From positions 1-32,014 of the forward strand of contig PWME01000034.1 of assembly GCA_003559235.1 (NCBI GenBank): a stretch of 32,014 nucleotides of DNA, written 5' to 3'. Every line of letters starts with the position of its first letter. Within the stretch, counting starts at the first letter, position 1. The notes below the pieces were generated by a model. It was given only the letters and a program-made list of their open reading frames with translations. It did no database searches and had not been told where the DNA came from. Made by a program: the position numbers and the translations under genes. This DNA comes from Mollicutes bacterium. GTDB taxonomy: Bacteria > Bacillota_I > Bacilli_A > Izemoplasmatales > Izemoplasmataceae. Positions 25,950 through 31,724 of this stretch are shown piece after piece.

Positions 25950-26120
25950 GCCGTTACCTCCCTCGCAAAGCAACTTTATTTTACCATGTTTGCGCAGTGT
26001 TTTCACGCATTTAGGTCCTCGCGATTAAGAAATCGCAACTTATCGCCTCACATCACTAAACAAATTACAAAAAATATTGTATAATGAACATACAAACACA
26101 CCACGCAAAGGGGAATGGGT

Positions 26121-26717
26121 ATGGCCAAAGAACGTAGAACACTTGATAAAGAACTACGGCATGCACTCGATAAGAAATCTTGCCATGAAATAATGGACTA
26201 TTTAATGGTGGAGTTTTCTGACCGCCGTGATTTTCATTACAATTATTATTTCGATACACCAGATAATGATTTAGATAAACGTGATTCCACGTTAAGATTA
26301 AGAACCATTGTAAAGGGTGATGACATCAGTTATCATCTCTCTTTAAAAATGCCTACGGTTCATAAAAACACCTTTTTGGAGTATCATGAAGTTCTCGATG
26401 AACGAGAATTTCGTTCCCTTGCCTATGAAAACAGACTTCCCAAAGGAGAAATATCGGATTTAACGTCGATTCACGGTGGCAATATTCACCTTATAAACAT
26501 GATTAAAGTAAATCGTGTCTTTGGTCTTTATCAAAACAACAAAGTCTTCTTCGATAAGATTTCTCAAAAAGGGGAAACCTATTATGAAATCGGCATGAAT
26601 ATCGACGCAAACGATGCTGCTCTCATAGATAAAAAAACTAAGCAGTTCCATGGGCTATTAAAAAAGTTTGATATTGAATTTGAACATGCTGGAAGACGCT
26701 CTGAACGCTATCGCTGA
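26121..26717 (+). CDS. CYTH-like (YjbK-type triphosphate tunnel) domain protein
   Basis: LDKELRHALDKKS aligns with the ExExK region; FHYNYYFDTPDNDLDKRDSTLRLR; DDISYHLSLKMP, matching the CYTH core pattern. Confidence 0.78.
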   Translation: MAKERRTLDKELRHALDKKSCHEIMDYLMVEFSDRRDFHYNYYFDTPDNDLDKRDSTLRLRTIVKGDDISYHLSLKMPTVHKNTFLEYHEVLDEREFRSLAYENRLPKGEISDLTSIHGGNIHLINMIKVNRVFGLYQNNKVFFDKISQKGETYYEIGMNIDANDAALIDKKTKQFHGLLKKFDIEFEHAGRRSERYR

Positions 26718-26820: not shown

Positions 26821-27291
26821 TTATTGTAATTGCCAAATGGTGGCGAGCTGTGTATAAAGAACTTCTTGAAGACTATCAATCTTTCCAATGCTTTCTAAAA
26901 CCACTTTCGTTCCACCGGTTGTAAAAAGAACAACCGATCCATACTTGAATAGTGACCCAAGTGAACGACGTTCAACATGGTAATGTGTCACATTCTTAAG
27001 CGGAACAATCGAACGAACCGCTTGTAAAGACAAGTGTTTCGTTACCACGACACGGTCACTGTAAACGTCTACACTTAAGCGTTTACGCGCCAACAACCGA
27101 ATGACAACTACCAGCAAATACAGTACTAAGAGTCCTAAGAAAATGAATCCCGCATACGGTACACCCGCAATTAATAAGACAAGACCCAACAAGACAACAA
27201 ACAAAAATGCAATCATAATCGGTTTAAGTAAAAAATGAATCACAGTGTAACGAGAGGACTTCGCAGTAATCAATGCTTCTTGCTTTTCCAT
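26821..27291 (-). CDS. PH-domain (bPH2/YdbT-like) membrane protein
   Basis: Two TM segments then VDVYSDRVVVTKHLSLQAVRSIVPLKNVTHYHVERRSLGSLFKYGSVVLFTTGG, a bacterial PH domain pattern. Confidence 0.75.
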   Translation of the reverse strand: MEKQEALITAKSSRYTVIHFLLKPIMIAFLFVVLLGLVLLIAGVPYAGFIFLGLLVLYLLVVVIRLLARKRLSVDVYSDRVVVTKHLSLQAVRSIVPLKNVTHYHVERRSLGSLFKYGSVVLFTTGGTKVVLESIGKIDSLQEVLYTQLATIWQLQ

Positions 27292-27374: not shown

Positions 27375-28982
27375 TTATGGAATCAATACAAAATAAACAC
27401 TCATCACAACGACAAACATTATAAATACAAAGTTCGCGCTTTGAAATGATGGTTTGTATTCTCGAATCATCCGGATGGGTCGGTAATCTTTTTTAATGAT
27501 GAAGTAATAAATTAAGAACCCTATCGCAAGCGCCACAAAATAATCAAAAAAGGCATCAAAATTGAAAACACTTATATATGATAATTCAACCCCAAAAAAA
27601 CCATCGCTAATCGGAATATAAAAATTGCCTAATATGACACACGCAAACGCAAACCCCATCAATGCAATGCGATCAAAGGGGGCGTAAAGCCGCAATGTCA
27701 TACGCCGCGGTCCAAAAAATATTTGCGACATTTTAATAAATGATGTCGCCGTCCCAATATTAACCCCAAACAATATCCATGATTTCAATGTCGAGTCTTC
27801 AATCGAATATTTAATAATAGTTTTAGAAATAAAGCCATTAAAAAGTGGTGCGCCAGTAATCGAAAGCATTCCGACAATCATGAAGATACTTACCGCAGGC
27901 ATGGTTTTAAACACCCCACGCATATCGGACACATATTTCGTTCGATACGCTTTAATGATGACCCCTGCCCCAAGAAATAATAAACTTTTAAACAAAGCAT
28001 GGTTGAAGATGTGCAAAAGTCCCCCGTAAAACGTATCGAAATCTGGGCTTGATAACCCCATCATCACTATTCCAATTTGCGAGACGGTATGGTAGGCTAA
28101 TATTTGTTTGATGTCTTTTTGACTCACCGCAAACAAAACCCCAACCACAGCGGTCGCAGCCCCGACATAAAAGAAAAACTCGCCGCTTTCTAAGTTTGCG
28201 CCAGAAAACATTTGGTTAATGCGAATAAACATGTAAAGCCCGCCCTTTACAATCAAGCCACTCAATAAAGCACTAATCGCAGATTGTGCAACTCCATGCG
28301 CTTTAGGGAGCCATGAAAAAACGGGAAATAAAGCAGATTTAACCGCGATACCTGCCATCATTAAGACATACGCAAAGCGTACTGAGGTTGCCTCACCGAC
28401 TGAATCAATCGCTTCACCAATAACACCGACATTAATGGTCCCAAAAACATTGTACATAATAATGACGCCAATCAAAAAGACCAAAACACCACTTGCATTA
28501 AGCAAGATATAATAAACCGCAGCGCGGAAACTATCGCCACTTTTTTTAAAGGCAATTAAAATCGTCACTAAAATCGTTGTTAGTTCTAAAAACACAAACA
28601 TATTAAAAAGATCATACGTTTGTAATAATCCTAAAAATACCCCTTGTAAAAACATTAAGAAAAACAAAAACGTTCGGTTACTTTGACGTGTATCAAATGT
28701 ATAAATCAACACCATCCAAAAACTAAAAAGCGTTAAAAAGATAAACGACATGCTGATTTCATCGTTTATTAAACTGATACCAATACGCAAGTCCCAATCC
28801 CCAAACACAATAAGGGTTGAAGCCCATTGATCAGAAAACTCACGGTAATAAAGCACAGCTAAAATTGTCATAGCAAGCTGTGCGATAAACGTTAAATACT
28901 TTACAGCACTATGTTTGTATAAATAAATAACTAATGCTGTAAAAACAGGAATGATAATAAGCAAAACTGAAAAAAACGCCAT
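27375..28982 (-). CDS. mrpD: Na+/H+ antiporter subunit D (MrpD/MbhH-like, NuoL/M/N family)
   Basis: Many TM segments; LQTYDLFNMFVFLELTTILVTILIAFKK, SALFPVFSWLPKAHGVAQSAISALLSGLIVKGGLYMFIR, LAYHTVSQIGIVMMGL. TAATG coupling to the mrpC stop. Confidence 0.93.
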   Translation of the reverse strand: MAFFSVLLIIIPVFTALVIYLYKHSAVKYLTFIAQLAMTILAVLYYREFSDQWASTLIVFGDWDLRIGISLINDEISMSFIFLTLFSFWMVLIYTFDTRQSNRTFLFFLMFLQGVFLGLLQTYDLFNMFVFLELTTILVTILIAFKKSGDSFRAAVYYILLNASGVLVFLIGVIIMYNVFGTINVGVIGEAIDSVGEATSVRFAYVLMMAGIAVKSALFPVFSWLPKAHGVAQSAISALLSGLIVKGGLYMFIRINQMFSGANLESGEFFFYVGAATAVVGVLFAVSQKDIKQILAYHTVSQIGIVMMGLSSPDFDTFYGGLLHIFNHALFKSLLFLGAGVIIKAYRTKYVSDMRGVFKTMPAVSIFMIVGMLSITGAPLFNGFISKTIIKYSIEDSTLKSWILFGVNIGTATSFIKMSQIFFGPRRMTLRLYAPFDRIALMGFAFACVILGNFYIPISDGFFGVELSYISVFNFDAFFDYFVALAIGFLIYYFIIKKDYRPIRMIREYKPSFQSANFVFIMFVVVMSVYFVLIP

Positions 28983-29317
28983 TATCTGCCACGCTCCATG
29001 CCAAGCACATCTACCCACTCGACACTACCAAAATGATGGAACACTTTAATACAAAGCATCAACGACAAACTCGTCACGGTTGAACCAATAACAATCGTCG
29101 TAATCATTAATGCTTGTGGAAGCGGATCGGCAATCAATGTATCAGGAATAATATCAACTGGTATCCGTCCACCGTCTAAATTTCCCATGTTCAAAAATAA
29201 TAAAATAACTCCCGACTCGATAATTGTTACACAAAATACGCTTTTGATAATATTCGTACTCGTCGCCAAACCGTAAAAACCGATTAGTATGACGATGAAG
29301 GTTAGTAATGGATCCAT
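28982..29317 (-). CDS. mrpC: Na+/H+ antiporter subunit C (MrpC/MbhG, NuoK-like)
   Basis: IGFYGLATSTNIIKSVFCVTIIESGVILLFL ... DPLPQALMITTIVIGSTVTSLSLMLCIKV. Confidence 0.92.
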   Translation of the reverse strand: MDPLLTFIVILIGFYGLATSTNIIKSVFCVTIIESGVILLFLNMGNLDGGRIPVDIIPDTLIADPLPQALMITTIVIGSTVTSLSLMLCIKVFHHFGSVEWVDVLGMERGR

Positions 29318-29318
29318 C

Positions 29319-30053
29319 TCATCGTCCCTCCTTCAAAAACGCCGTAAAGATTGCCCATAATCCTAAAGCAACTTTAAAGCCAATCAAGACATTAAGCACA
29401 ACAAGGTAAATCGACTTTGCGTCCGCTGATGACTCAAGCGGAAACACATTCGTAAAAAATGCACCTCTGGTAAAATAACTTGCTGTTGCCAAAAGCAAAA
29501 TGGCAATGTATATATATTTTTCAACCGTTACAATCAAGTTAATGTTTGTGTCTTTTTCTGCATCAATGTAATAAAGAATCAAAATTGCCGTTGCAACAAT
29601 CGCGCCCCCTTGAAACCCACCACCTGGTGATAGATGGCCGTTAATAATAACATAAAAACCAAATGCCAACATCAACGGATAAACCAAGCGACTGAATGTC
29701 ACAAACAAGTCAGGCGTTTTAAACTTATCAATCATAAACTGTGCATTTTTTTCTTCAATTTCATGTCGGCTAATCCAAATAACCCCAGAGACCGCAATAA
29801 GCAATATACCCGCTTCAAACAAACTGTCAAACAAACGATAATCTAGTAAGATGGATGTGACTAAGTTTTTCGACCCTGTTTCTGCCTCAGCGTAACGCGA
29901 AAAATAATCCTTTCCAAACGTATTGTATAGTGCTTCAAGGTTTTCATAGGCGCCAAAAAATACATAAAACAAAAACCCTAACATGCCAATTAATACGATA
30001 TGTTTAATCACCGAAATCACGATCCTTGAACTTGATGACTTCAATATCATCAT
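29319..30053 (-). CDS. mrpB: Antiporter subunit: MbhE-like (MrpA C-terminal) segment fused to MrpB/MnhB domain
   Basis: NLVTSILLDYRLFDSLFEAGILLIAVSGV (MbhE/MrpA C-term-like) followed by FYVIINGHLSPGGGFQGGAIVATAIL (MnhB). A GTG at 30011 may be the real start, overlapping the upstream stop. Confidence 0.88.
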   Translation of the reverse strand: MMILKSSSSRIVISVIKHIVLIGMLGFLFYVFFGAYENLEALYNTFGKDYFSRYAEAETGSKNLVTSILLDYRLFDSLFEAGILLIAVSGVIWISRHEIEEKNAQFMIDKFKTPDLFVTFSRLVYPLMLAFGFYVIINGHLSPGGGFQGGAIVATAILILYYIDAEKDTNINLIVTVEKYIYIAILLLATASYFTRGAFFTNVFPLESSADAKSIYLVVLNVLIGFKVALGLWAIFTAFLKEGR

Positions 30054-30585
30054 AGTCCTTCGCCATTTGTTCTAACTTATTCATTAAAATGCTTGATGCC
30101 TTTCCTTTTAAAACATAAACCCCACGTTCTTCATCATGGGAGACAATTAAATCAACATTCGTGTCTTCACATAATTTTTGGTCTTTACCAGACCCTAAAG
30201 AACATAAACGGACATCATTACACAAATTCAACTCTAAATGATAATAATCGGTAAACCGCTTAAGTAGTATGTACCCTCGTCCAGTAAAGGTATTGTCGCT
30301 GATGATGAAATCATCCATCGCTTTATCTAAGACAATGAACTCACGTTGCCGCGAAATACTAATAACGTAAATTAATGGAATAATCGCACTGCCAATCGCC
30401 ACTTCCGCAATCGCCACATCGGGCGCACGATTAATAACATAAAGACTTGCCGTAATGAGTGAGAACGTTGTAATTAAGATAATAATCGTGCCGTTGTTTT
30501 TATGAACCACAATGGCAATTGCCATAATGATAAGCAACACTTGAAGTGCATAAGCCGTAAAGTCGAGCATCGTCAAATCACCCAT
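30004..30585 (-). CDS. MbhD/DUF4040-like subunit with C-terminal soluble extension
   Basis: IILITTFSLITASLYVINRAPDVAIAEVAIGSAIIPLIYVISI (MbhD / MrpA C-terminal motif), then about 100 hydrophilic residues. Start 30585 or 30570, overlapping the mrpG stop. Confidence 0.85.
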   Translation of the reverse strand: MGDLTMLDFTAYALQVLLIIMAIAIVVHKNNGTIIILITTFSLITASLYVINRAPDVAIAEVAIGSAIIPLIYVISISRQREFIVLDKAMDDFIISDNTFTGRGYILLKRFTDYYHLELNLCNDVRLCSLGSGKDQKLCEDTNVDLIVSHDEERGVYVLKGKASSILMNKLEQMAKDYDDIEVIKFKDRDFGD

Positions 30586-30925
30586 ACAGGTCACGCTCCT
30601 TCTCTTGTGCTTTTTCACGATCGGCTTTGCTTTCAAGACGTTTAATATCAACACCTGTTAAATACGCACTACGAATATTAACATGCGAACTAATAGGGGT
30701 CGTAATCAATAAAAACCCAATCAACAAAATAAAACGAATGACGTAATTGTATTCTGTAATATTAATGAGCATAAGGGCAATCAAAATCGACAAACTGCCA
30801 ACGGTGTCAATGGTGGCTGCACTTAAAATACGCGTGTAGATGTTTTTTAAGCGGAAAATCGCAACCAATCCAAACACAATAAACAGCCATGAAAGGATCA
30901 AAATGAAAATGACAATAGCATTCAT
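30578..30925 (-). CDS. mrpG: Na+/H+ antiporter subunit G (MrpG/MbhC)
   Basis: GLVAIFRLKNIYTRILSAATIDTVGSLSILIALML ... LLITTPISSHVNIRSAYLTGV. Confidence 0.92.
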   Translation of the reverse strand: MNAIVIFILILSWLFIVFGLVAIFRLKNIYTRILSAATIDTVGSLSILIALMLINITEYNYVIRFILLIGFLLITTPISSHVNIRSAYLTGVDIKRLESKADREKAQEKERDLYG

Positions 30926-31200
30926 TTTTCGCGCCCCCCTGTCATGATATATTTTGATAAGAGCGTAATGGTTAAAAAGCCAACAATACCATACGCAATC
31001 GCAATGTCTAAAATCAAGTTGCTATCTTCCCAAATCGCAAACACTGCCATAAACATTAACACTTTAGCACTGATCAAGTTAATCATTAAAATACGATCCC
31101 AAATTGTTGGTCCGATAACCATTTTCACAAAACTTACCGCAACGGCGAGTATCAACATAAACAGCGTAAAAATTAAAAACCACTCTACCATAGGATGCAT
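30922..31200 (-). CDS. mrpF: Na+/H+ antiporter subunit F (MrpF/MbhB)
   Basis: KMVIGPTIWDRILMINLISAKVLMFMAVFAI ... LDIAIAYGIVGFLTITLLSKY. Confidence 0.92.
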   Translation of the reverse strand: MHPMVEWFLIFTLFMLILAVAVSFVKMVIGPTIWDRILMINLISAKVLMFMAVFAIWEDSNLILDIAIAYGIVGFLTITLLSKYIMTGGREK

Positions 31201-31724
31201 TATTTATCACCTTTTTGTTTAAGCAAACGTTCAAATTTCTGACGAATCGGCTGTTCAAGCATTTCTGCACTAACCCCAGGTTTTGCCATCGTCATTACCG
31301 TAATGATATGCTTTTTAGAGTCTGTGTCGATGGTAATCGTTCCAGGTGTTAATGTTATCGAATTGGAAATAATCCCAATCAATACCGCATCTTCAACATC
31401 GAGCTCAATATCGAATATAACGGGTTCGTAGTGATGAGCGATTAAATTGAATACATAGGTAAACGAAGCTTTATAGATTTCATAAAATAAAAATACGACG
31501 TAAACGATGATGGTCCGAAACCGGACCGCCGCATACATATACCCTTTATCATCATAAAGAACATTGTACGTTGCGATTGTGACAACCCCACAAATAAAAA
31601 TACCCGCTAAAATAGTCTCAATCTCAAAATTAAGCGCCAATAAAAACCAAAAACCTAACAAAACAAGAAATAACTTATAGCGCATTTTGATAAAACGCAG
31701 TAATCGCTCTTTACGTGTTTTCAT
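31200..31724 (-). CDS. mrpE: Na+/H+ antiporter subunit E (MrpE/MbhA)
   Basis: MrpE-like layout with TMs, then VLIGIISNSITLTPGTITIDTDSKKHIITV. ATAGGAGTG RBS upstream. Confidence 0.92.
   Translation of the reverse strand: MKTRKERLLRFIKMRYKLFLVLLGFWFLLALNFEIETILAGIFICGVVTIATYNVLYDDKGYMYAAVRFRTIIVYVVFLFYEIYKASFTYVFNLIAHHYEPVIFDIELDVEDAVLIGIISNSITLTPGTITIDTDSKKHIITVMTMAKPGVSAEMLEQPIRQKFERLLKQKGDK

Follow-up and report, generated by a model that had tools for sequence, protein, structure and literature searches.

The stretch of DNA described here, which we call the window, is the whole of contig PWME01000034.1 (32,014 nucleotides, forward strand) from a Mollicutes bacterium of the family Izemoplasmataceae (assembly GCA_003559235.1). 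Open reading frames and Pfam matches reveal an operon of seven genes for an Mrp-type antiporter, running from 31724 to 27375 on the minus strand in the order MrpE-MrpF-MrpG-MbhD-(MbhE+MrpB)-MrpC-MrpD. MrpA is not among them. The parts of the operon are as follows.

31200..31724, minus strand: MrpE/MnhE, 174 amino acids (PF01899, E = 8.6e-24)
30922..31200, minus strand: MrpF, 92 amino acids (PF04066, E = 4.9e-10)
30578..30925, minus strand: MrpG, 115 amino acids (PF03334, E = 1.4e-16)
30345..30585, minus strand: membrane part of MbhD, three helices (PF13244, E = 9.5e-15; VIA Z = 12.3 to 6cfw_D over 76 residues)
30004..30344, minus strand: C-terminal soluble domain of MbhD, about 110 amino acids (AlphaFold model and structural matches)
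29319..30053, minus strand: fused MbhE and MrpB, up to 244 amino acids, start uncertain (PF04039, E = 1.7e-21; PF20501, E = 1.4e-4)
28982..29317, minus strand: MrpC, 111 amino acids (PF00420, E = 3e-17)
27375..28982, minus strand: MrpD, 535 amino acids, the sole antiporter-like subunit of the operon (PF00361, E = 6.4e-56)

The original prediction, made from the DNA letters, had given this gene order and the lack of MrpA in the operon; both are borne out, and Pfam identifies all seven subunits. MbhE is the lone part to fall under its curated threshold (PF20501, 22.2 bits against a cut-off of 27 bits). Nevertheless, its identity is supported by the alignment of the MbhE-MrpB fusion, end to end and over its full length, with the fused MBS subunit 6u8y_E (E = 5.8e-23). 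The MrpA-less operon is real, complete and conserved. Its layout is called class I throughout.

The MBH-like character of the layout, also predicted, stands as well. MrpD, MrpC, MbhD and MbhE-MrpB all find their closest solved homologues among chains of the MBS (6u8y) and membrane-bound hydrogenase (MBH; 6cfw) complexes of Pyrococcus furiosus. Searched with a profile of the class I family, the best matches for MrpD are 6u8y_H (218 bits), 6cfw_H (216 bits) and 7qru_D (207 bits), and a profile of MrpC gives 6u8y_G (81 bits), 6cfw_G (68 bits) and 6z16_C (54 bits). Profiles of MbhD and MbhE-MrpB rank MBS and MBH chains above Mrp chains, and MrpF yields a near tie of all three. The residues expected along an ion path are conserved. 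Asp35 of MrpF, the proposed Na+ entry residue, is invariant in 11/11 aligned sequences, and so is Glu34 of MrpC, which aligns with a Glu of MbsG and an Asp of MbhG; Glu56 of MbhD (numbered from the ATG at 30570) is likewise invariant, within the motif APDVAIAE. The roles of these MrpF, MbhD and MrpC positions are those proposed in the account of PMC7419157. MrpC lacks the two histidines of the canonical His-Gly-x-His, the Ser-His-Gly-Ala-His stretch being replaced here by Glu-Ser-Gly-Val-Ile; Glu34 falls within this part of the protein. By alignment, MrpD retains E133, K215, K246, H324, H328, K332 and K387.

The layout, which the original prediction treated as unusual, is one already published. 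Operons of the Mrp type that lack mrpA make up a recognised class known as Group 3, according to the account in PMC8415708, and a review defines the group by irregular gene order (summary in PMC5703873). The former describes a stand-alone, genetically tested mrpEFGBB'CD cluster in P. furiosus, where deletion of PF1147-53 made growth more acid-sensitive and blunted the stimulation of H2 production by Na+ (PMC8415708). The window operon is a member of Group 3: mrpA is absent, and MrpD is present together with E, F, G, B and C, with conserved ion-path residues. It resembles PF1147-1153 in gene order, in equivalent content with a single MrpD and equivalents of MbhD and MbhE, and in having neither MrpA nor a redox module. 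The fusions differ, however: P. furiosus joins MbhD to MbhE and keeps MrpB as its own protein, whereas the window joins MbhE to MrpB and has a free-standing MbhD that carries a soluble domain. With module A-H of MBS the operon shares the MbhE-MrpB fusion, the acidic MrpC residue and the top solved homologue for MrpD, MrpC, MbhD and MbhE-MrpB; unlike MBS, it has no MbsH', J, K, L, M or N, and MbsD (94 residues, 6u8y_D) has no soluble domain. The module layout is also that of MbhA-H in MBH, but there is no hydrogenase module here. Compared with canonical Group 1/2 Mrp (6z16, 7qru, 7d3u), the fold of MrpD is the same and MrpC and MrpF are homologous, but MrpA, in which a NuoL-like part is fused to an MbhD/MbhE part, is lacking and the MrpC histidines are replaced.

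The MrpD model (mean predicted local distance difference test, pLDDT, 92.9) matches Bacillus MrpD (7qru_D) over residues 1-465 with Z = 45.6, and it has two extra C-terminal helices at 475-496 and 513-533, the first of which is matched only by NuoL/ND5-type chains in the list of structural matches. A phylogeny of MrpD, called for by the original prediction, was computed by a quick method on 62 long rows, with canonical Mrp represented by plasmid-record sequences (three of MrpD, three of MrpA) and the sample drawn without the MrpD of PF1147-1153. In this tree, the class I MrpD sequences, which come from Mollicutes, Bacilli, Clostridia and Spirochaetota, group in a single clade (Shimodaira-Hasegawa-like approximate likelihood ratio test, SH-aLRT, 100), separate from the three canonical MrpD, from four Thermococcus MbhH and from the D subunits of the two other layouts found among relatives (classes II and III, below). 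As to whether class I MrpD lies nearer to D-type or to long L-type subunits, the deep branches discriminate poorly: the approximately unbiased test gives p = 0.49, and the other grouping has a support of 53. The phylogeny thus agrees with the original prediction in placing MrpD outside the sampled canonical MrpD, yet it does not unite it with the four Thermococcus MbhH. Because MrpD lies outside the Thermococcus rows too, the term 'MBH-type' should be read as likeness of layout and residues, not as demonstrated descent. The same tree bears on the notion that the operon is a canonical Mrp of seven genes from which MrpA was recently lost. Such a loss might have occurred deep in the past; as a recent event it is very improbable, given that MrpD groups with those of other stand-alone clusters in a supported clade that excludes the three canonical rows, and that the separate MbhD, the MbhE-MrpB fusion and Glu34 of MrpC are all MBS-like.

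The source genome (1.7 Mb, 261 contigs) is 90% complete. Searches of it for MrpA and for homologues of the MBH oxidoreductase subunits had been proposed with the original prediction, and both came back negative. PF00361 finds two genes only, the window's MrpD and a paralogue on contig C235, which we call D2; no MrpA was found among these PF00361 matches, nor any match to TIGR00940 above its cut-off. Likewise, PF01058, PF00346 and PF00146, which represent the homologues of MbhJ, MbhL and MbhM, give no match in this 90% of the genome, although each of the three models was positive in 11/14 control genomes.

To place the operon among its relatives, 61 genomes including the window's own were compared. 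Matches to PF00361 occur in 45 of them; some (for example in G010, G011, G019, G025, G036 and G044) were classed by length alone, and the short matches in G054 and G059:C17 were set aside. By reading of gene neighbourhoods, class I is present in 19 of the 61 genomes. In class II, the module precedes a further antiporter-like gene together with NADHdh, the 20, 30 and 49 kDa subunits (by Pfam) and a protein that we read as NfnB-like; this is a full MBH/Mbx-like complex. In class III, the genes after the module encode antiporter-like proteins, one or two in number, that are long at about 700 residues. Genome G022, a single contig, holds classes I and II, and G029 (99% complete, two contigs) holds classes I and III with no class II pair. 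Class I is therefore a system in its own right, found alongside the other two. The full complexes of wall-less relatives (L071:1459-13107 in G022; also L061, L062 and L068) end in the NfnB-like flavoprotein, and their MrpD (4/4) has Glu at the position of the window's Lys215 and no Lys at that of Lys246.

The class extends further: scanned with an MbhD alignment, 84,980 species genomes returned at least 80 loci. Those listed span Izimaplasma, other Mollicutes metagenome-assembled genomes (many with names suggestive of soda lakes), Peloplasma, Fusibacter, Acetobacterium, Alkalibacter, Spirochaetota and Thermococcus. Acholeplasmatales, Clostridia and Spirochaetota all have members with the window's layout. 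Since the query carried the soluble domain, the 80 listed loci are a sample biased towards that domain. Setting aside 21 of them (11 without a full MrpD or MbhD, 10 with less than 1.5 kb downstream), 53 of the remaining 59 contain no further D-type gene and no oxidoreductase subunit in the locus; where each flank extends for 1.5 kb or more, 40 of 44 listed loci are free of both partner types. Partners were sought by BLAST with the class II oxidoreductase proteins of two relatives, so that very remote oxidoreductases could escape. The two loci among the 59 that do have an oxidoreductase are from Thermococcus; together with a third outside the 59, these served as a positive control, and all three were recovered. 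One Clostridia metagenome-assembled genome (L139:5551-12912) carries a tandem pair of MrpA-less E-F-G-MbhD-MbhE-B-C-D clusters.

Of the two interpretations offered originally, these counts favour a stand-alone antiporter. The other, in which the operon would supply the membrane half of a redox complex and genes at another place its oxidoreductase, draws on the layout, on the MBH/MBS chains as best solved homologues and on the presence of full Mbh/Mbx-like complexes in relatives such as G022. But those complexes carry their own genes from E-F-G to D and so have no need for a second set, G029 has the operon and no class II pair, and no partner is seen in the genome, at 90% completeness, or in the flanks of 40 of the 44 listed loci. 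We regard this interpretation as scarcely credible.

The paralogue D2 calls for separate consideration. It is present in 14 of the 61 genomes, 12 of which also hold the operon, and its catalytic residues are invariant in 14/14 aligned sequences. All D2 sequences form one clade nested within the operon MrpD family (support 98/92), which identifies D2 as a duplicate of the operon MrpD within this lineage. We considered whether D2 might be an MrpA in disguise. Helix VIII of MrpA bears the signature His-x-x-Thr-Met-Val, common to MrpA and NuoL as stated in PMC4938563; it is absent from all 33 rows of the class I clade, D2 included, whereas the His and Met-Val are seen in the three MrpA rows. This absence and the position in the tree reject the idea. 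D2 might instead join the operon complex as a second antiporter-like subunit, so that the complex would have a pair of proton channels, like canonical Mrp, but with MrpA replaced by a D-type copy. The intact residues, the nested clade and the co-occurrence with the operon are in line with this, and the bacterial genome NPL-UPA2, as described in PMC6305446, offers a likeness, with an MrpA-less MrpEFGBBBCD cluster plus a separate MrpDD. Nevertheless, the operon occurs without a detected D2 in 7 of 19 genomes, including the near-complete G022 and G029; conversely, G013 (93% complete) and G030 (82%) have D2 and no detected operon MrpD, and D2 lacks the helix VIII signature and often sits beside other genes, namely those for DUF1576, a small protein, a flavodoxin and an FMN-binding protein. 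Joining is therefore unlikely. Somewhat better placed, although still short of an even chance, is the idea that D2 acts outside the operon complex as a separate single-subunit antiporter, which is compatible with the operon standing alone. No Mrp subunit gene adjoins D2 at any of the 14 loci (several of which lie at contig ends), and there is a precedent, by description, in Nt-Nha of Natranaerobius, a homologue of MrpA/MrpD that occurs alone and is reported to carry out Na+/H+ antiport (summary in PMC5703873).

In the source genome, the D2 locus (L003:7048-11246) reads D2, DUF1576, a 118-amino-acid protein, flavodoxin and FMN-binding protein, an order partly conserved in relatives. The idea that D2 and DUF1576 form a single functional unit is weakened, because DUF1576 matches at E <= 0.001 occur in 31 of the 61 relatives, and many of these lack D2. 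In G421, from another family of the class (L213:5560-9990), DUF1576 and its 118-amino-acid neighbour lie divergently, directly beside a class I Mrp operon. This independent association is a second hint of a link between DUF1576 and this type of Mrp.

Class I MbhD extends about 110 residues beyond its third helix. The soluble domain so formed has an AlphaFold pLDDT mostly of 70-90, and its best structural matches are single lobes of type II periplasmic binding proteins (VIA Z of 7.5-7.9 over 92-100 residues, a little below the caution line of 8); Foldseek gives a best E of 8e-3. No consistent Pfam family was found in 35 members, and a profile search of the PDB returned no binding protein. The predicted fold may be like that of a single binding-protein lobe of this type. 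With the positive-inside rule as a guide to membrane topology, the domain probably faces the cytoplasm. Every class I genome whose MbhD could be read has it (15/15, counting the window), and these operons were found through PF00361, independently of the MbhD query. By contrast, the labelled MbhD of other Mrp-like clusters measure 77-101 residues in 21 of 22 cases (a NuoJ in L203 that the MbhD model touches is not counted). The exception, an archaeal protein of 182 residues annotated DUF4040 (L208), is probably MbhD fused with MbhE. A stand-alone cluster of Acetoanaerobium (L205) has an MbhD of 97 residues without the soluble domain, and the account of the P. furiosus stand-alone Mrp in PMC8415708 describes none. 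With these two counter-examples, the domain is not strictly tied to stand-alone clusters. It may regulate the exchanger. A more elaborate scheme, in which the binding-protein-like domain would sense a cytoplasmic small molecule or ion and gate Na+/H+ exchange, and a separately controlled D2 would be added to convert an exchanger with one channel and a low ratio to one with two channels, is a long shot.

Taken as a whole, we predict that the operon encodes a stand-alone, one-channel Na+/H+ antiporter of Group 3 that serves pH homeostasis, with a probability of roughly 0.75. MrpE, MrpF, MrpG, MrpB and the MbhD/MbhE pieces would form a Na+ path and the single antiporter-like MrpD a H+ path, and the two would meet at a site comprising Glu56 of MbhD and Glu34 of MrpC. 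With no redox module attached, existing ion gradients would drive the exchange, and Na+ would be swapped for H+. One proton channel instead of two would be expected to lower the H+/Na+ ratio, perhaps to electroneutral exchange. Gene content and order, conserved residues, the lack of partner genes in the available sequence and recurrence in other genomes are observed, whereas assembly of such a complex, the identity of its ions and their direction are predictions.

The gradients may be set by an Nqr-like pump and, probably, a Na+-type ATP synthase. The genome has NqrB-, NqrC-, NqrD- and NqrE-like genes and an NqrF-like gene split into two adjacent pieces by a frameshift or assembly error (L191:5068-8976, contig C48); names beyond the Pfam level are our own reading, and no NqrA was seen in the stretch read. 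The c subunit of the F-type ATP synthase contains GPGIGQG and AETTGLY stretches, which we take to be a sodium-binding signature, and the enzyme of this cell is probably of the Na+ type. In an alkaline spring where Izemoplasmataceae are abundant, Mrp and Nqr are named among the genomes' adaptations, and the ion type of the ATP synthase is discussed (abstracted from PMC10308030).

Three points weigh against a stand-alone antiporter. MrpA is reported as essential in the Mrp of Bacillus subtilis (cited in PMC8415708), so that a one-channel complex might not exchange ions alone. D2 could complete the complex as its second antiporter-like subunit. Finally, with the genome 90% complete in 261 contigs, the absences of genes are provisional.

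The contig ends 290 bases upstream of MrpE and truncates the neighbouring gene there. An MrpA at this edge was considered and rejected: the last readable residues resemble the C-terminus of a LigB/AMMECR1 protein of relative G007 (58% over 26 residues, E = 2e-6), which by Pfam and synteny is encoded two genes upstream of MrpE in that genome, and the fragment is therefore not MrpA. Downstream, the next gene after MrpD is the following.

26821..27291, minus strand: bacterial PH-domain membrane protein (PF03703, E = 1e-4)

A PH-domain gene on the same strand followed by a long terminator had been predicted at this place. The gene is real, albeit with a weak match (22.9 bits against a cut-off of 22), and synteny shows it retained after MrpD in only some relatives. 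A long terminator does not hold up, as the terminator-like stem at 26775-26759 has six pairs and is not long, and such stems barely exceed chance in the region (9 found against 5.6 expected, standard deviation 2.9). Beyond it, a gene at 26115-26717, presumably VTC/CYTH-like, is convergent to the operon and keeps its position in many relatives.

In the literature searched (Mrp without MrpA, Izemoplasma Mrp, and MbhD/DUF4040 with a periplasmic-binding domain, at less than full-text coverage), we found no description of this bacterial clade as a group, of an MbhD with the soluble domain or of the duplication that gave D2. The clade of its own for MrpD, the soluble domain and the D2 paralogue are the less ordinary features of this system. 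Our results indicate that the MrpA-less, one-channel Mrp is a widespread bacterial class and not an archaeal oddity. It occurs in named strains, for example of Acetobacterium, Fusibacter, Alkalibacter and Peloplasma, which may be easier to handle than P. furiosus, and the soluble MbhD domain offers a concrete handle on regulation. In nature, a one-channel Mrp offers the simplest way to test if one antiporter-like subunit on its own can couple H+ to Na+ flow, a question that underlies models of both Mrp and complex I.

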